Source of the DNA: Clostridiaceae bacterium
GTDB taxonomy: Bacteria > Bacillota > Clostridia > DSM-8532
Assembly: GCA_025361665.1 (NCBI GenBank)
Contig: JANYKF010000154.1
Span: forward strand, 1 to 11,287
Length of the DNA: 11,287 nucleotides
Direction: 5' to 3'
In this document: positions 73 to 9,146 of the stretch, piece by piece
Layout: each line of letters begins with the position of its first letter
Position numbering within the stretch: position 1 is the first letter of the stretch
Made by a program: the position numbers and the translations under genes
Notes under the pieces: generated by a model
The model's input: only the letters and a program-made list of their open reading frames with translations
What the model was told of the DNA's origin: nothing
Databases searched by the model: none

Positions 73-1242
73 ATGAAGGAATTGACGGTCAAGTACGGAT
101 GCAACCCGCATCAGAAGCCATCCCGCCTGTTCATGAAGGAAGGGGATCTTCCCCTTGAAGTGCTGCATGGAACGCCCAGCTACATCAATTTCATGGATGC
201 ACTGAATGCATGGCAGCTTGTCCGGGAACTGCGTGAAGAGACAGGGTTCCCGGCAGCAGCCTCTTTCAAGCACGTCAGCCCTGCGGGGGCGGCCATTGGC
301 ATACCCATGCCGCCTGCTCTGGCTGCATCCTGCCATGTGGAAGGAAAGACGCTCTCCCCTGTGGCTGTCGCCTATGCGCGCGCCCGGGGGGCCGATCGCG
401 TTTCTTCCTATGGCGATTTCGTCGCGGTGAGCGATGTCGTCGACATTTCACTGGCGGACCTTTTGGCGAAGGAAGTATCAGACGGCATCATCGCACCCGG
501 TTTTGAACCGGAAGCGCTGGAAAAGCTGAAAACGAAGAAAAGGGGCGCTTATGTCATCCTGAAGATGGACCCCTCCTACCGCCCGGCTGCGAAGGAGTCG
601 AGGGATGTGTTCGGCATCACCCTTGAACAGCTCCGCAATGATGCGCGTATAGACGCCTCTCTGCTGCGGCAGGTTGTCACGCGGGAAAAGGATATGCCGG
701 AATCGGCCATCCGTGACCTGATCATTGCCACCATCACCCTCAAATACACGCAGTCCAATTCCATCTGCTTCGCCTTTGACGGACAGGTGATCGGGGTCGG
801 CGCCGGACAGCAGTCCCGCATCCACTGCACGCGTCTCGCGGCGGGGAAGGCCGACAACTGGATGCTGCGCCAGCATCCGAAAGTACTGGGCATGCAGTTC
901 CGGGAAGGTCTTTCGAATTCGGTGAAAGACAATGCGGTCGACCAGTTTTTACGGGATGACATCACGGATGTGGAGCTTGACGAATGGCGGACCTTGTTTA
1001 CGGAAGTTCCGGATAAGCTTTCCAAACAGGAAAAGCAGGACTTCATTCTCGCATTTGGCGGCATCGCCTATTCATCGGATGCGTTCATCCCGTTCCGGGA
1101 CAACCTTGACAGGGCAGCCGGGAGCGGCACCCGATACGTCGCCCAGGCAGGCGGATCTGTGAAGGACGCCGAGGTCATCGCGGCGGCCGATGCCTATGGC
1201 ATGGTCATGTGCTTCACGGGGCTGCGCCTTTTCCATCACTGA
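73..1242 (+). CDS. Stand-alone AICAR formyltransferase (PurH transformylase domain only)
   Basis: This 389-residue cytoplasmic enzyme should transfer the formyl group of 10-formyltetrahydrofolate to AICAR to make FAICAR, the penultimate step of IMP synthesis. The sequence shows hallmarks of the AICARFT domain: the catalytic Lys-His pair in KHVSPAGAA (K66, H67), the QQSRIHCTRLAAGKADNW segment near residues 248-265, AFGGIAYSSDAFIPFRDN near residue 330, and the terminal block YVAQAGGSVKD ... GLRLFHH. Ordinary bifunctional PurH is about 510-530 residues, with an N-terminal MGS-like IMP cyclohydrolase domain. That domain is absent here, and the protein starts directly with the transferase fold (MKELTVKYGCNPHQKP). 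The start is secure, with AGGAGG six nucleotides upstream. It follows a probable separate IMP cyclohydrolase by one nucleotide. No clear intrinsic terminator follows the stop. The symbol purH is withheld because it usually denotes the fused enzyme. Confidence 0.95.
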   Translation: MKELTVKYGCNPHQKPSRLFMKEGDLPLEVLHGTPSYINFMDALNAWQLVRELREETGFPAAASFKHVSPAGAAIGIPMPPALAASCHVEGKTLSPVAVAYARARGADRVSSYGDFVAVSDVVDISLADLLAKEVSDGIIAPGFEPEALEKLKTKKRGAYVILKMDPSYRPAAKESRDVFGITLEQLRNDARIDASLLRQVVTREKDMPESAIRDLIIATITLKYTQSNSICFAFDGQVIGVGAGQQSRIHCTRLAAGKADNWMLRQHPKVLGMQFREGLSNSVKDNAVDQFLRDDITDVELDEWRTLFTEVPDKLSKQEKQDFILAFGGIAYSSDAFIPFRDNLDRAAGSGTRYVAQAGGSVKDAEVIAAADAYGMVMCFTGLRLFHH

Positions 1243-1300: not shown

Positions 1301-1319
1301 TATACATGTTAAGTGTATA
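1293..1319. promoter_or_regulatory. Candidate repressor operator: 14-bp palindrome over the -10, plus a third half-site
   Basis: Bases 1293-1306 form the perfect palindrome TGTATAATTATACA, which contains the whole -10 hexamer. A third TGTATA half-site lies at 1314-1319, forming a second inverted repeat with TATACA at 1301-1306 across a 7-nt spacer. A dimeric repressor here would block RNA polymerase directly. No regulator gene is encoded nearby, so its identity is unknown. Some similarity between the two symmetric arms is unavoidable, because TATAAT is AT-rich. Confidence 0.5.
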
Positions 1320-1333
1320 TTCATGCAACCCGT

Positions 1334-1338
1334 GGAGG
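1334..1338 (+). promoter_or_regulatory. Shine-Dalgarno that decides the methyltransferase start
   Basis: GGAGG ends six nucleotides before the second ATG of the pair at 1342/1345. This favours initiation at 1345 over the in-frame ATG at 1306, which has no SD and coincides with the predicted transcription start. Confidence 0.75.
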
Positions 1339-1344
1339 CACATG

Positions 1345-2109
1345 ATGAATCAGACGGAATGGCTCCCTTGCAAAAACTGGATGTCGGAAGGTGCGGAAGC
1401 GACCCTGGTGACCTTGATCCTGGAATCGGGCCGCATATCGCGTCATTCTCACGTTCTGGAAATCGGCTGCGGTTTGGGCCGCCTGTCCGGTGAGATTGCG
1501 AGGGCATCGGGAGCCAGGGTCCTTGCCACAGAAGCTTCCCACATCGATTTGGAAAAAGCGAGGGCGATCGAGCCGGATGTCGGGTTCATGCAGGGATCAG
1601 GCTTGTCGATTCCTTTTCAGGAGACCTTGTTCGATGTTGTGATCATTCACCAGACCGACCTGCATTTATCCGCCTTGTCGAAGGTCCTGTCCGGTATGGC
1701 AAGGATTCTGAATGCGGACGGCAGGCTTCTGATATTGGCCGAAACCCGTCAGCAGACGCTTGGCCGGATCACGAGCCGGTATTTTCCTTCCCTTGCCGCC
1801 GCAGATGCCCTTCAATGCCCGGATGCGGCGGAGTTGGCCGTTCATGCGGCGGACGCCGGATTTGTCGCCTGCGGGGCCAGGGTTTTCGGGAATGGATGCA
1901 TTTCCATGGACCAGACTTTTCTTCGCCAGGTACGCCGATTCGGTCATTCCATGATCCACCGGATCGGCTGCCTGGAATATGCCGAAGGGCTGATGAGGCT
2001 TGAAGAGGACTATTACGGGCATCCATACGGTCATCATCACGCCGGAAACACCCTGATCGTCCTGGCCAAGGAAGCGGAAGCATGCCTTCCCCTGTCGAAA
2101 ACAGCGTGA
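1345..2109 (+). CDS. Class I SAM-dependent methyltransferase, substrate unknown
   Basis: The 254-residue protein has a Rossmann-type methyltransferase core. Motif I is VLEIGCGLG at about residues 37-45 (SAM-binding loop). An acidic residue at the end of strand 2 (E63 in ATEAS) would hold the ribose, and the motif II/post-I region is PFQETLFDVVI near residues 90-100. A helix and strand after it, ARILNADGRLLILAE, match the usual UbiE/Methyltransf_11-like order. The C-terminal half (about 120-254) is not diagnostic of substrate. It contains a His-rich patch, HPYGHHHAGN, near the end that could bind metal, though this is only a possibility. There is no signal peptide, so it should be cytoplasmic. 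The gene has its own perfect promoter with an overlapping palindrome, so it is probably induced rather than constitutive. The start at 1345 is chosen from the SD; 1342 is an alternative, and 1306 is unlikely. Small-molecule, RNA or protein substrates all remain open. Confidence 0.85.
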   Translation: MNQTEWLPCKNWMSEGAEATLVTLILESGRISRHSHVLEIGCGLGRLSGEIARASGARVLATEASHIDLEKARAIEPDVGFMQGSGLSIPFQETLFDVVIIHQTDLHLSALSKVLSGMARILNADGRLLILAETRQQTLGRITSRYFPSLAAADALQCPDAAELAVHAADAGFVACGARVFGNGCISMDQTFLRQVRRFGHSMIHRIGCLEYAEGLMRLEEDYYGHPYGHHHAGNTLIVLAKEAEACLPLSKTA

Positions 2110-2148: not shown

Positions 2149-2180
2149 GGGTGTTGCAGTCCTGTGCTGAAAGGATCCTT

Positions 2181-4118
<1,938 letters not shown>

Positions 4119-4121
<3 letters not shown>

Positions 4122-4134: not shown

Positions 4135-5100
4135 ATGCCGATCATTGACATGCCATTGGAGGAACTGAAGGCATTCCAGGGCAGGAACCCTTGTCCGGAA
4201 GACATGGATCGCTTCTGGGAAGACGCCATTGCGGAAATGAAATCAGTGGATGCCGCCGTGGAACTGATTCCGGCCCGCTTCACCACCCCGTTCGCAGACT
4301 GCTTCGACTTGTGGTTCACCGGGGTGCGGGGCGCCCGGATTCACGCGAAGTTCCTGAGGCCGAAGAGCCTGAATGGAAAAGCGCCCGCCATTCTGCAGTT
4401 CCACGGTTATACGGGAAATTGCGGAGACTGGGTCAGCAAACTCTCCTATGTCGCCGCGGGATTCATGGTGGCGGCCTTGGATTGCCGGGGCCAGGGCGGA
4501 CTGTCCGAAGATGCGGGCGGCGTGAAGGGCAATACGCACAACGGCCACATCATCCGCGGCCTGGACGACAAGCCGGAAAACATGCTGATGCGTCAGATCT
4601 ATCTGGATTCAGCGCAATTGGCCGGCATCGTCATGGGCATGGAAGATGTGGACGAAACCCGCGTGGCCGCCATGGGCGGATCCCAGGGAGGAGCCCTCAC
4701 CATTGCCTGTTCTTCGCTCGAACCACGCATCTGCCGCCTGGCGCCGATGTTTCCGTTTCTCTGCGATTACAAAAGGGTCTGGGAGATGGATCTGGCGAAA
4801 GATGCCTACCAGGAGATCCGCACGTTCTTCCGGATGTTCGATCCGCGCCACGAGCGGGAAGACGCCATTTTCGAGCAGCTTGGGTACATTGACCTGCAGC
4901 ATCTTTCCAAACGCATCCGGGGCGAAGTGCTCATGGCCGTCGGCCTGATGGACACCATTTGCCCGCCTTCCAGCCAGTTTGCCATGTACAACCGGATCAC
5001 GGCGAAGAAACAAATCGTCCTCTATCCCGATTACGGGCATGAAGGACTTCCGGATTTCGACGACATCACCTACGGGTTCATGTCAGAGCTTTTGTCGTGA
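4135..5100 (+). CDS. CE7 acetyl esterase (acetylxylan esterase / cephalosporin-C deacetylase family)
   Basis: This 321-residue alpha/beta hydrolase has the CE7 family motifs in order: DCRGQGG (R118-G-Q), the nucleophile elbow GGSQGG with S183, the acid D273 in VGLMDTICPP, and H302 in YGHE. These positions almost coincide with the triad I recall for the Thermotoga maritima enzyme (S188, D274, H303), and the length is typical. CE7 enzymes remove acetyl groups from short xylo-oligosaccharides and other small acetylated molecules, including cephalosporin C. They usually work in the cytoplasm as hexamers, and no signal peptide is seen here. The start at 4135 is chosen from TAAGGAGG and leaves a 13-nt gap after the ABC-F gene. 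No xylanase, sugar transporter or kinase is nearby, so context does not point to xylan use. The natural substrate is open. Confidence 0.93.
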   Translation: MPIIDMPLEELKAFQGRNPCPEDMDRFWEDAIAEMKSVDAAVELIPARFTTPFADCFDLWFTGVRGARIHAKFLRPKSLNGKAPAILQFHGYTGNCGDWVSKLSYVAAGFMVAALDCRGQGGLSEDAGGVKGNTHNGHIIRGLDDKPENMLMRQIYLDSAQLAGIVMGMEDVDETRVAAMGGSQGGALTIACSSLEPRICRLAPMFPFLCDYKRVWEMDLAKDAYQEIRTFFRMFDPRHEREDAIFEQLGYIDLQHLSKRIRGEVLMAVGLMDTICPPSSQFAMYNRITAKKQIVLYPDYGHEGLPDFDDITYGFMSELLS

Positions 5101-5105
5101 TGCAC

Positions 5106-5110
5106 GGAGG
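5106..5110 (+). promoter_or_regulatory. Shine-Dalgarno that decides the helicase start
   Basis: GGAGG lies seven nucleotides before ATG 5118. The upstream in-frame GTG 5097 and ATG 5100 overlap the esterase stop and have no SD, so 5118 is preferred. Confidence 0.75.
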
Positions 5111-5117
5111 CATTTCC

Positions 5118-8117
5118 ATGAATCCCCTGCGCTTCAAATTTGAGTTCCGATCCCATCAAAAACTCATCCTGGACCGGTTTGAGGAAGAAAGGCGGAAGAC
5201 CCCCGCGGGTGAACCGCTTCGTTACCATGTGGTGGCTCCGCCCGGTGCCGGAAAAACGATTGTCGGGTTGGAACTGGCCATCCGCCTGGGAAAACCCGTG
5301 ATGGTCGTGTGCCCGAACACGGCCATCCAGGGCCAGTGGATGAAGAAACTTGAAATGTTCATCCCCGATGCCAATCCGGAAACGGTGCGTGTGTTGTCCA
5401 CGACCGATGCATCATCCCCCCGGTGGCTCAATGTGCTGACTTATCAGATCCTGAGCATTCCGGAAGATCCGGGTGAATGCATGGTGGACATTGCCGAGGG
5501 AATCTGGGCGGAAACCATGCTGGATGCCCAGGGGGTTGAGGAAGAAGAAGCCCGTGCGCGGATTGCGAAAATGAAAACGTCGAACCCGGCCGCTTATCGC
5601 AAGGAACTGGCCCGGTTTACGAAAAAGCTGCGCGATGGGAAGCTGGAGGAGCTCATGACACCGTCCGGCGCCCCGGGGGCCGTACCGGCTTCCATTCCGC
5701 CGGAAGAACGTTTCCTCGGCATCCTGCATCCGAACACCCGCGCCTTGCTGTGCAGCCTGAAGCAGGCCGGCGTGAAGACCGTGATTTTCGATGAGTGCCA
5801 CCACCTGCAGACCTGGTGGGCGCAGGTGATGAAACACCTGTTGAAATGGATGGACGTGGAGAGCATCATTGGCCTGACCGCTACCCCTCCGTATGACGAG
5901 AATGCCGAGGTGCTCCAAAACTACATCGGCCTGCTTGGCCCTGTCGACTTCGAGATTCCGACCCCCGCCGTGGTGAAGGACGGCATGCTGGCCCCTTATC
6001 AGGACTTGCTGTATATGTGCCGTCCGCAGGAAACGGAGTGGACGTTCCTCCAGAATTGCCATGGAAAGTTCCGGGAACTGCTGGTCCTGTTCGCAAAGCC
6101 GGACAGTGATTTCTGCCGTTTCATGCAGGAGCGGATTCTTGAGCGGAAGATGGCGGACGGTTCGCAACGGGAATGGAAGAAGCTCTACGCAGCGCGGAAG
6201 GAATTCGCCGTCGCCGGCATCAAATACCTTCATTCTGCCGGCGTCCGCCTATCGCCGGACATCTCCATGACCCCCGCGATGTCGGGACATCCCACGCTGG
6301 AGGAATGGACCCTTCTTGTGGAGGATTATGCGCTCAACCGCTTGAAGCTTTCCGCTTCAGCGGAAGATGCCGTTCTTTACAATGATATCCGGGATGCGCT
6401 TTATGCACTGGGATTCATTCTGACGGAGAAAGGCATCCGCAGCTACATTTCGCCTTTGGACCGTGTTCTGGCCTACAGTCGCAGCAAACTGACGGCTGTT
6501 CGTGAAATCCTGCTGACGGAAATGAGGTCAATGGGCGATTCCCTCCGGGCGGTTGTCGTCACGGATTTCGAGTTTTCCAACGCCCTTTCGCTCAAGCAGC
6601 TGGACAAGGTGCTTGACGCGGAGTGTGGCGGAGCCATCAGCGTCATGAGGATGATGGCGGCCGACCCGGAACTGGACAGGCTCAACCCCGTCATGGTAAC
6701 CGGGAAAAGCCTGCTGTGCGATGAAGACATCGCGGAAGCGTATCGGGGCCGGCTGTCCGCATGGGCGCAGAAGCAGGGCTATGACATTTTGCTGCAGATG
6801 ACGCCGTCTCCGGACGGGACCTTTGTCTCCATCGAAGGGACCGGGCGCGACTGGAACACGCGGAGCGCCATCCTGTTCACCACGAGCCTTCTGGAGGAAG
6901 GACTCACACGCTGCATCATCGGCACGAGGGGCCTGCTGGGAGAAGGGTGGGACAGCATCTCCCTCAACACCCTCATTGATCTTTCCGTGGCCACCACCTA
7001 TGCCTCCGTCAACCAGCTGCGCGGCAGAAGCATCCGGAAAAACGAAGGAGCACCCCGCAAGCTGGCGAACAATTGGGATGTGGTCTGCTACGCACCCGAA
7101 TTGGAAAAGGGGATCAATGACGTGCTGCGGCTGACGAAAAAACACGGCCAATTCTACGGGATATGCGCTGATGGCCGCATTAGCAAGGGCACGGCTCATC
7201 TTGATGCAAGGCTGGCCCTGAAGGATCGGCTGAAGACAGAAGAGGCAAATGCGCTCAATGACACCATGCTCCGGCGCAGCGGCAATCGGGATCCTGTCTA
7301 TGATTTGTGGAAGGTCGGGGAACCGTTCCGGAATATCGAGCAGGAATGTGTCGAATTCCGGCTGGAACAAGGCGCCGTCATCGGTGATTTTGGTCAGCAG
7401 ACAGCTGAGCTGGCTCATTTGCAGGCGAAGACAATGGGCTTGTCTTTCAAGGGGGGTGCCGGTGTCCTGTCCTTGCTGGCCGCCCTGGTGGCCACCGGCG
7501 TCAGCCTTCCCATGGCCGCGATGGCCGGTGCGGCTTCCGCGTTGTTTCTATATTCCAGCGCAAAGGGACTTGCGAGGACGGCGGCGTTCGGGAGGGAGGA
7601 AGTGGCACGGATCCGGCCCGAGATCTTTGCACGGCGCATGGCCTTCGCCATCTTCCACGCCTTGAAAGAAAACAGCTTGCTGCCGGTGAACGTGCAGGAG
7701 CGCCAGGTTGTCCTGACCTCCGGCGCCGACGGGTCCGTCCGTGTTTTTCTCGATGGAACCCCTCAGGAATCGATCCTTTTTTCCAGGAGCCTGGATGAAT
7801 TGCTCAGTCCGATTGCGGACCAGCGGTATGTCGTGCCCCGCTACGAATCGCCGGTACCCAAGGGGAAGGGAAACATCGCATTTCTGCAGAAAGCCCTTTC
7901 CCCCGGACAACCTGTTCTGGCCGGATACCACCCGGTTCCGGAAGAACTGGGCCTGAACAGGGAACGCGCCGCCATCTTCCAAAAACACTGGAACCGGCAT
8001 GTGAGCAGGGGAGACGTGGTTTATCTGAAAAGTCCGGAAGGGCAGGCAATCCAGGAGCATTTCGGACTGGTCGACCCGTTGGGCGTGCAGAAGCATGTTG
8101 CCGCCATCTGGCGGTAA
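5118..8117 (+). CDS. Large SF2 helicase-like protein with hydrophobic C-terminal segment
   Basis: This 999-residue protein has a full set of superfamily 2 motifs: an N-terminal FRSHQ (Q-motif-like), Walker A APPGAGKT (40-47), VCPNTAIQGQW (65-74), DECHH (225-229), TAT (254-256), RAVVVTDF (477-484), GEGWDS (608-613) and QLRGRSIR (633-640, with the expected arginines). It should therefore hydrolyse ATP and translocate on or remodel nucleic acid. Between motif Ib and motif II lies a charged helical insertion (about 118-205). About 210 residues separate the two RecA lobes. After motif VI come about 340 residues of unrecognised sequence with an Ala/Leu/Gly-rich hydrophobic stretch at about 781-815, long enough for a hairpin or one to two membrane passes. 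From memory, unnamed 'DEAD/DEAH box helicase family' proteins in actinobacteria share DECHHL, '(S/T)PAVV..G.LAPY' and YVVPRY-like blocks; this is unverified. No nuclease or methylase partner is adjacent. The gap from the esterase gene is 17 nt. Confidence 0.85.
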   Translation: MNPLRFKFEFRSHQKLILDRFEEERRKTPAGEPLRYHVVAPPGAGKTIVGLELAIRLGKPVMVVCPNTAIQGQWMKKLEMFIPDANPETVRVLSTTDASSPRWLNVLTYQILSIPEDPGECMVDIAEGIWAETMLDAQGVEEEEARARIAKMKTSNPAAYRKELARFTKKLRDGKLEELMTPSGAPGAVPASIPPEERFLGILHPNTRALLCSLKQAGVKTVIFDECHHLQTWWAQVMKHLLKWMDVESIIGLTATPPYDENAEVLQNYIGLLGPVDFEIPTPAVVKDGMLAPYQDLLYMCRPQETEWTFLQNCHGKFRELLVLFAKPDSDFCRFMQERILERKMADGSQREWKKLYAARKEFAVAGIKYLHSAGVRLSPDISMTPAMSGHPTLEEWTLLVEDYALNRLKLSASAEDAVLYNDIRDALYALGFILTEKGIRSYISPLDRVLAYSRSKLTAVREILLTEMRSMGDSLRAVVVTDFEFSNALSLKQLDKVLDAECGGAISVMRMMAADPELDRLNPVMVTGKSLLCDEDIAEAYRGRLSAWAQKQGYDILLQMTPSPDGTFVSIEGTGRDWNTRSAILFTTSLLEEGLTRCIIGTRGLLGEGWDSISLNTLIDLSVATTYASVNQLRGRSIRKNEGAPRKLANNWDVVCYAPELEKGINDVLRLTKKHGQFYGICADGRISKGTAHLDARLALKDRLKTEEANALNDTMLRRSGNRDPVYDLWKVGEPFRNIEQECVEFRLEQGAVIGDFGQQTAELAHLQAKTMGLSFKGGAGVLSLLAALVATGVSLPMAAMAGAASALFLYSSAKGLARTAAFGREEVARIRPEIFARRMAFAIFHALKENSLLPVNVQERQVVLTSGADGSVRVFLDGTPQESILFSRSLDELLSPIADQRYVVPRYESPVPKGKGNIAFLQKALSPGQPVLAGYHPVPEELGLNRERAAIFQKHWNRHVSRGDVVYLKSPEGQAIQEHFGLVDPLGVQKHVAAIWR
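8098..8117 (+). other. Stable hairpin enclosing the helicase stop codon
   Basis: TTGCCGCC and GGCGGTAA pair as an 8-bp stem (one G-U) around an ATCT tetraloop, with the TAA stop as the 3' end of the stem. There is no T-run afterwards, so it is not a standard intrinsic terminator. It could stabilise the 3' end of the mRNA or mark processing. It may also be chance, because the stem is also coding. Confidence 0.4.
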
Positions 8118-8207
8118 GGATACGTAAAACGGCAGTAGCAGTTGGCAGACAAATGATGGATAATGGAATCATCATCAGGGGGAACGGATTCAATGGGGGA
8201 GAAACAG

Positions 8208-9146
8208 ATGCGCATTTTAATCGCCGAGGATGATTTGACGTCCCGAACCGCCCTCGCGGGAATTCTGAAAAGGGCTGGTTATGATGTCATATCGACCGTG
8301 AACGGTGCTGAGGCCTGGAATGAGCTTCAGAAGCCGGATGCGCCGAAACTGGCCATTCTGGACTGGATGATGCCGGAAATGGACGGCGCGGAAGTCGTCC
8401 GGCTTGTCCGTGCCCAGCCGTCCGAACGGCCGGCCTACCTCATCATGCTGACGGGCATGGACAAAAAAACGGACATCGTGTCGGGACTCAGTATCGGCGC
8501 GAACGATTACCTTTCCAAACCGTTTGATTCCGGAGAACTGCGCGCGCGCATCGAAGTGGGCCGGCGCATGCTCGAGATGCAGGACGCGCTGATGGAAAGC
8601 CATGAAACTGTTTTGTACCAGGCCAGTCATGATTCCCTGACGGGCATGTGGAACCGGCGCGCCATCCTTGAGCGCCTCAACGAGGAAATCTCGAGAATGA
8701 ACCGTTCGGGAGATTCACTGACGATCGGGATCTGCGACATCGATCATTTCAAGCTGGTCAACGACTCGTATGGTCATCAGACCGGAGATGAGGTGCTCTG
8801 CGAGCTTGTCCGGATTTTGCATGAATGTCTCCGGAAATACGATGTGGCCGGAAGAATCGGCGGAGAGGAGTTCCTTCTCATCACGCCGATGAATGACAGC
8901 TCGGATGTCACCGCCGTGTATGAGCGGCTGTGCGCAACGGTCGCCGAAAACAGCTTCAGAACAAGGTCCGGCGGCTTGTCCATCACGGTGAGCATCGGCG
9001 TGGTGAAAGGGAGGCCCGGAAACGTGGCCGATGAAATGCTTGCGATGGCCGACACCGCACTGTACCGCGCGAAGGCGGAAGGCCGGAACCGCCTGGCTTA
9101 TTCGATTCTGCCGCCTGCAGGAACCACAGCGGTTATCCATTCATGA
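8208..9146 (+). CDS. REC-GGDEF response regulator (diguanylate cyclase)
   Basis: This 312-residue protein has a receiver domain (1-~120) and a GGDEF domain (~140-305). The receiver has acidic D8/D9, phosphoacceptor D52 (LDWMMPEMDG), T82 and K104 (SKPF), all key residues. The cyclase has DxLTGxxNRR at its start, DIDHFKLVNDSYGH (metal/GTP region) and GGEEF at 218-222, a catalytically competent signature. RKYD (209-212), five residues before GGEEF, fits the inhibitory I-site RxxD that binds c-di-GMP for product inhibition. A short helix joins the domains, as in WspR-type proteins, where phosphorylation drives dimerisation. It should make c-di-GMP from two GTP in the cytoplasm. No histidine kinase, EAL or HD-GYP gene is next to it. 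ATG 8208 has GGAG six nucleotides upstream and places the receiver at the N-terminus; in-frame ATGs at 8193 and 8163 are alternatives. The gap from the helicase stop is 90 nt. Confidence 0.94.
   Translation: MRILIAEDDLTSRTALAGILKRAGYDVISTVNGAEAWNELQKPDAPKLAILDWMMPEMDGAEVVRLVRAQPSERPAYLIMLTGMDKKTDIVSGLSIGANDYLSKPFDSGELRARIEVGRRMLEMQDALMESHETVLYQASHDSLTGMWNRRAILERLNEEISRMNRSGDSLTIGICDIDHFKLVNDSYGHQTGDEVLCELVRILHECLRKYDVAGRIGGEEFLLITPMNDSSDVTAVYERLCATVAENSFRTRSGGLSITVSIGVVKGRPGNVADEMLAMADTALYRAKAEGRNRLAYSILPPAGTTAVIHS

Follow-up and report, generated by a model that had tools for sequence, protein, structure and literature searches.

What would a helicase motor do with a stretch of residues fit for a membrane? 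The question is raised by a 999-residue superfamily 2 (SF2) motor protein encoded on an 11,287-nucleotide stretch of DNA from a Clostridiaceae bacterium (assembly GCA_025361665.1, contig JANYKF010000154.1), called the window here, whose source genome comprises 525 contigs and 2.6 Mb. An earlier note on this DNA had pointed to a long hydrophobic segment in the protein and had offered two readings of it, a membrane anchor or a buried hairpin. Our comparisons favor the anchor. We take the window protein to be a member of a large, unnamed prokaryotic family of membrane-anchored SF2 motors, at a probability of about 0.75. Judged from its sequence, the hydrophobic hairpin is very probably integral to the membrane or deeply inserted in it, and the motor family probably works at the cell membrane.

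Motor and C-terminal domain of the window protein

The window protein scored 57.8 bits against the Pfam model ResIII (cut-off 22.5) and 34 bits against DEAD (cut-off 26). Motifs I, II, III, V, and VI are all present, with most of their residues invariant or nearly so among 71 aligned sequences, the window's included (Table 1). Together with the complete open reading frame, these results agree with the earlier description of an SF2 helicase with five intact classical motifs, and the two big insertions mentioned there were both found in the predicted model. XPB was the best fold match of the motor, which has the XPB motor fold; LGP2, RIG-I, MDA5, and Hef were also among the Foldseek matches of the protein. 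Pfam, NCBIfam, PADLOC, and further profile searches with the window protein gave no match over the whole length to any characterized family; such a match was an outcome that the earlier note had named as counting against it. The region after motif VI, put there at about 340 residues and called unrecognized, is 359 residues long, and its C-terminal domain indeed lacks a clear fold match.

Within that domain, residues 779 to 815 form a run of 37 positions without D, E, K, or R, the next-longest uncharged run in the protein being 17, and the Kyte-Doolittle 19-mer hydropathy peaks at 2.01, at residue 783. In the model this run, first noticed as a hydrophobic stretch at 781 to 815, lies at the tip of a helical hairpin predicted for residues 763 to 830 and inserted between the first strand and the next helix of the C-terminal domain. 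Neither hairpin segment has a strongly polar face (lowest face means, -0.02 and 0.5). The other outcome that had been named as adverse, residues 781 to 815 forming the core of a soluble domain, was checked in the predicted models and was not seen.

The hairpin as a family trait

Hairpin pairs were scored as two hydrophobic 16-mers with a mean hydropathy of at least 0.9 each, which is a loose cut. The scoring took 112 of 150 sequences; in the other 38 the insert region was too short, 35 of them being insert free and 3 truncated (L003, L033, and L065). All 112 insert-bearing sequences, the window's included, have the two hydrophobic segments, and the bases of the hairpin are net positive in 110 of them. 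Over these 112 sequences, K plus R make up 20 to 25% of the bases and D plus E 6%, the segments are less than 1% charged, and the loops hold 3% K plus R and 5% D plus E. Upstream hydrophobic pairs were found at the same loose cut in 81 of the same 112 proteins, but these control pairs are balanced in charge, with net-positive bases in only 31 of the 81. The median hydropathy of the lower segment is 1.69 in hairpin pairs versus 1.02 in control pairs, and a cut of at least 1.3 keeps 103 of the 112 hairpins versus 4 of the 81 controls. By hydropathy and charge counts, the window hairpin combines two hydrophobic segments with positive, putatively cytosolic bases, a pattern that reads as positive-inside with both ends in the cytosol. 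The new finding is that the hairpin is a trait of the family, bearing what appears to be the signature of a transmembrane hairpin.

Hairpin-bearing rows are labelled Bacillota, Chloroflexota, Candidatus Melainabacteria, Thermomicrobiota, Actinomycetota, and Candidatus Dojkabacteria. An uncharged run of at least 25 residues occurs in the C-terminal 40% of 93 of the 150 sequences, insert-free ones included; several Chloroflexota forms have no long run because charged residues separate their two hydrophobic segments. The scoring picked the wrong second segment in P0029, a row kept in the counts, and some rows are duplicates (L005 and L131, L008 and L132, L003 and L136, and some P rows that equal locus rows).

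A second, divergent subfamily, subfamily B, was found with L138 as the query, giving 3746 matches at E ≤ 0.001 among 7992 scored candidates. Its relationship to the window's subfamily spans the entire protein (hhalign probability 100, 850 columns). Among the best 120 of the 3746 matches (P0121 to P0240), to which all figures on subfamily B refer, the hydrophobic pair is present in 120 and the bases are net positive in 117. The segments are strongly hydrophobic, with a median lower value of 2.44, and by a slightly different scoring all 120 pairs reach at least 1.3. When 299 proteins were scored, P0022 was too short and 10 of the remaining 298 fell below a cut of 1.2: P0023, which is truncated; P0032, P0041, P0054, and P0256, at 1.16 to 1.18; and P0253, P0257, P0291, P0293, and P0295, at 0.57 or less. 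Subfamily B is very large and, by the few source names given, largely clostridial, with proteins of about 870 to 940 amino acids, some of which carry an annotated zinc ribbon (PF13240).

A clade without the hairpin

The hairpin region is 56 to 91 residues long in 116 of 154 sequences and 8 to 15 residues long in 35, with 3 truncated there. By their labels, the 35 short rows belong mostly to Marine Group II archaea and Planctomycetota, with Verrucomicrobiota also present and three possibly mis-binned contigs, L039 (Gammaproteobacteria), L075 (Akkermansiaceae), and L076 (Flavobacteriales). A quick, unrooted tree of the motor region, from columns that exclude the hairpin, was built with 72 of the 154 rows (below 72% core identity); 69 rows carry labels, and the label "hairpin" denotes an insert of at least 50 residues. 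L039 groups with the archaeal rows in this tree, and L075 and L076 are outside its sample. The hairpin and no-hairpin states are split by a single change with a support of 100 in the Shimodaira-Hasegawa-like approximate likelihood ratio test (SH-aLRT). Members of the insert-free clade lack just the hairpin segment, the C-terminal domain being otherwise kept. With the tree unrooted, one loss of the hairpin would be the simpler reading, given the presence of the insert in the most divergent rows (L137, L138, and L140). A divergent alphaproteobacterial relative outside the tree, L143, has no strong pair (0.88), and a further loss is therefore possible.

The family-wide pair, the control, and the clade-wise absence of the segment as a unit argue that the hairpin is a modular anchor and not a buried core. 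That it has a strand on one side and a helix on the other, in a domain that also occurs without it, likewise supports the anchor proposed in the earlier note and disfavors the buried hairpin proposed beside it. The hairpin-free clade allows the anchored motor to be compared with a naturally soluble counterpart, and the question of which nucleic-acid work must happen at the membrane becomes testable.

Proposed action and relation to known systems

In the arrangement that we propose, the XPB-like motor and the C-terminal domain would stay in the cytosol, and the hairpin would leave the C-terminal domain after its first strand, cross the membrane, and return before the next helix, so that both ends would lie inside and a short loop outside. 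The motor would translocate on double-stranded DNA, in the manner of XPB- and RadD-like enzymes, and its substrate is more likely DNA than RNA. The anchor may confine the motor to membrane-near DNA for genome upkeep, the role that we favor; whether the role is genome upkeep rather than defense we would call at even odds.

Several observations weigh against this picture. The membrane assignment was made by hydropathy and charge counts only, with no trained membrane-protein predictor, and the 112 sequences are related to one another, some being near-duplicates. In the window protein the second hydrophobic segment is modest (16-mer, 1.30), and model confidence is lower in the hairpin (block means, 65 to 78) than in most later blocks of the domain (88 to 98). 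L137, a divergent row taken as hairpin-bearing from the length of its insert, is weak in its first segment (0.98), and the loops of subfamily B are richer in basic (0.062) than in acidic (0.022) residues. Relatives without the insert imply that the core activity needs neither the anchor nor the membrane. The spread is patchy: the window's subfamily was found in 9 of 32 genomes of the organism's own family, with subfamily B in 2 others, and counts by class (E ≤ 1e-50, one query each, with or without the insert) gave 4 of 150 genomes in the class of L025 (Chloroflexota) and 17 of 98 in the class of L078 (a planctomycete). Such a spread fits an accessory gene as well. Finally, the substrate, the translocation, and the role are inferred.

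Integral-membrane SF2 helicases are, to our knowledge, not a recognized class in bacteria. The window motor shares its fold with XPB (Rad25), but it scored 35.9 bits, over residues 7 to 116 only, against NF045503, whose equivalog cut-off is 610; seven of eight relatives scored 34 to 52 bits, and P0121 gave no match at E ≤ 1e-8. Unlike XPB, the window protein adds two helical insertions, a C-terminal domain, and a predicted membrane hairpin, and it holds no literal copy of the RED tripeptide, a motif known from XPB. RadD, a 586-residue chain for which we know of no membrane hairpin, gave a weak, short match around motif II (E 8.8e-4, profile positions 208 to 249). Hef, RIG-I, LGP2, and MDA5 are Foldseek matches but not among the sequence matches of the window protein, and their C-terminal parts differ from its own. 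FtsK and SpoIIIE are membrane-anchored DNA translocases and offer a working likeness only, that of a membrane-fixed motor acting on DNA; they are of a different ATPase class and their anchor is N-terminal, whereas that of the window protein is internal, and the FtsK_SpoIIIE domain gave no Pfam match in it up to an E value of 1. With PbeA and other defense helicases the similarity is generic to SF2, and we know of no membrane hairpin in such systems. In titles and abstract openings of the literature, RadD is placed in bacterial genome maintenance, and no description of the present helicase family was found.

Alternative explanations

The hydrophobic hairpin might instead be soluble, packing in an oligomer or binding a hydrophobic partner. 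It is rich in Ala and Gly in the window protein, its second helix is of moderate hydropathy, and the upstream pairs found at the loose cut show that hydrophobic pairs also occur elsewhere in the same proteins. The net-positive bases, set against the control pairs, the strongly hydrophobic segments of subfamily B, the absence of the segment as a unit in one clade, and the lack of a strongly polar face in either segment of the window protein make this very improbable, and a buried soluble hairpin was rejected on the charge pattern, its repeat in subfamily B, and the one-clade absence. An RNA motor at the membrane, acting in mRNA turnover or membrane-coupled translation, would accord with the RIG-I, LGP2, MDA5, and Hef fold matches and with the helical insertion between the RecA-like domains of the model, which RIG-I and Hef also have, but we consider it unlikely. 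More doubtful is a widespread one-protein machine in which the SF2 motor and the membrane hairpin are coupled. Engagement of DNA or RNA would then move the hairpin, or the membrane-fixed motor would reel nucleic acid toward or along the membrane; the protein might be a single-gene translocase, a chromosome tether, or an immune sensor-effector, with Marine Group II archaea and planctomycetes keeping an anchor-free form.

Single-gene anti-phage defense, raised in the earlier note as speculation, would have the motor, anchored at the membrane, encounter phage DNA on entry and block or remodel it, or signal via the hairpin. SF2 motors are common in defense, the patchy spread in the organism's own family and in the class of L025 would suit such a role, and the best PADLOC match of the window protein is PbeA, at a weak 26.5 bits. 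Against this, eight family members gave no PADLOC match above 30.9 bits, and strong defense-gene matches near the family are few, a plain count without a background set and not a claim of depletion. The flanking set comprised 111 proteins from 28 loci, picked by size and number from 169 candidates (150 listed), with none from L038, L137, or L140; at E ≤ 1e-15 it matched 12 PADLOC models (models, not distinct proteins) with one member each, among them type I restriction enzyme models, mads_3, mads_8, PDC-S27, and Csa3. The window neighbors are genes for an ABC-F ATPase, an esterase, a GGDEF regulator, and a transporter; several relatives lie amid housekeeping genes, relatives adjoin glycolysis genes, rho, or transporters, and loci are conserved in the genus g7 and in Marine Group II archaea. 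In the window, no defense-system partner genes were recognized, and no Pbe, DISARM, Druantia, or other listed defense system gave a strong PADLOC match with its partners. The only methyltransferase encoded in the window (1306-2109) is most similar to small-molecule types, and its gene is not next to that of the helicase; the earlier note had remarked that the adjacent methylase, nuclease, or phospholipase D (PLD) genes of known systems are lacking. Nor is there an adjacent Mod methyltransferase in the window, to which this search was confined. No clear viral copy emerged from the viral and phage collections: three short exact-pattern scans, able to reach close relatives only, gave 0 relatives, and one further scan gave 7 matches, all limited to a short stretch at the Walker A motif. 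We find no support for defense and consider it improbable. A defense island, given the few strong matches in the flanking set, and a phage-borne gene, given the viral searches, were both rejected as unsupported.

Two unannotated fecal "Bacteriophage sp." records hold relatives with a hydrophobic pair (L141:1000-3771, 923 amino acids; L144:3320-6088, 922 amino acids), which may be carried by phages or may be bacterial DNA included among phage records.

Genomic neighborhood and distribution

The features of the window are collected in Table 1. The esterase stop lies 17 bases 5' of the helicase ATG on the same strand, and a major facilitator superfamily (MFS) transporter gene follows the receiver-GGDEF gene. 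In G001 (locus L129), the one other genome of the window's genus returned by the searches, the ABC-F, esterase, and helicase genes have the same order and strand; the earlier statement that the helicase has no obvious partner holds with this shared order as an addition. Competence genes are absent among the window's named neighbors, no direct ComFA comparison having been made.

Table 1. Features of the window, with positions from its first nucleotide
Feature	Position	Strand	Remarks
ABC-F ATPase gene	2151..4121	+	Upstream; NF000355 462.9 bits, cut-off 380
Acetyl xylan esterase-like AXE1 gene	4135..5100	+	Upstream; PF05448 E 1.7e-125; homologue at same place in L129
GGAGG, ribosome-binding-site-like	5106..5110	+	8 bases 5' of ATG; read directly
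SF2 motor gene	5118..8117	+	Complete open reading frame, 999 amino acids, ATG start, stop included
Motif I (Walker A), within APPGAGKT	5238..5258	+	P41, P42, G43, G45, K46, T47 invariant in 71 sequences
Insertion 1, residues ~118-220	5469..5777	+	Helical in predicted model
Motif II, DECHH	5790..5804	+	D225, E226, H228, H229 invariant in 71 sequences
Motif III, TAT	5877..5885	+	T254, T256 invariant in 71 sequences
Insertion 2, residues ~300-475	6015..6542	+	Mostly helical in model; between two RecA-like domains
Motif V, GEGWDS	6939..6956	+	E609, G610, W611, D612 invariant in 71 sequences
Motif VI, QLRGRSIR	7014..7037	+	Q633, G636, R637, R640 invariant in 71 sequences
C-terminal alpha/beta domain, residues 741-999	7338..8114	+	Loosely ferredoxin-like; weak matches only
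Helical hairpin, residues 763-792 and 797-830	7404..7607	+	Proposed transmembrane anchor; model, hydropathy, charge pattern
Uncharged hydrophobic hairpin tip, residues 779-815	7452..7562	+	Sequence, hydropathy
Receiver-GGDEF response regulator gene	8163..9146	+	Downstream; profile matches

The neighbors of the family vary between genera and include glycolysis genes, rho, and transporters. In the five genomes of the genus g7, the helicase gene lies between an MFS gene and the genes for phosphoglycerate kinase, triosephosphate isomerase, and phosphoglycerate mutase. The helicase locus of Marine Group II archaea is conserved, with neighbors that we take from their sequences to be a succinyl-CoA ligase, a primase small subunit, and a nucleotidyltransferase. 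One downstream gene, presumably rhodanese-like, recurs in 11 loci of Candidatus Melainabacteria. No neighbor cluster common to groups was seen among the loci compared (g7, Marine Group II, Candidatus Melainabacteria, and others), and a conserved partner gene was rejected for lack of one across groups. At the same threshold as the other class counts (E ≤ 1e-50, one query each, with or without the insert), homologues were found in 31 of 117 genomes in the class of Candidatus Obscuribacter and in 60 of 118 in the class of L061 (Marine Group II).

A scan for sigma-70-like sites found 5 versus 3.4 expected. Two strong ones, at 1272-1300 (12/12) and at 2119-2148 (11/12, with TG), both on the + strand, precede the methyltransferase and ABC-F genes, respectively, and the second could drive an operon of the ABC-F, esterase, and helicase genes. 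At 73-1242 (+) the window encodes a stand-alone 5-aminoimidazole-4-carboxamide ribonucleotide (AICAR) formyltransferase (NF005492, 626.6 bits; cut-off 415) of 389 amino acids, compared with 511 positions in the bifunctional PurH model. An incomplete open reading frame at the contig end (10386-11285, +) had no Pfam match at E ≤ 1e-5 and contains an HSLTDG motif (HxxxDG), by which we take it to be condensation/acyltransferase-like. At L007:7896-10942, a homologue of the helicase occurs in two overlapping frames (224 and 806 amino acids), through either a genuine frameshift or a mistake in sequencing.
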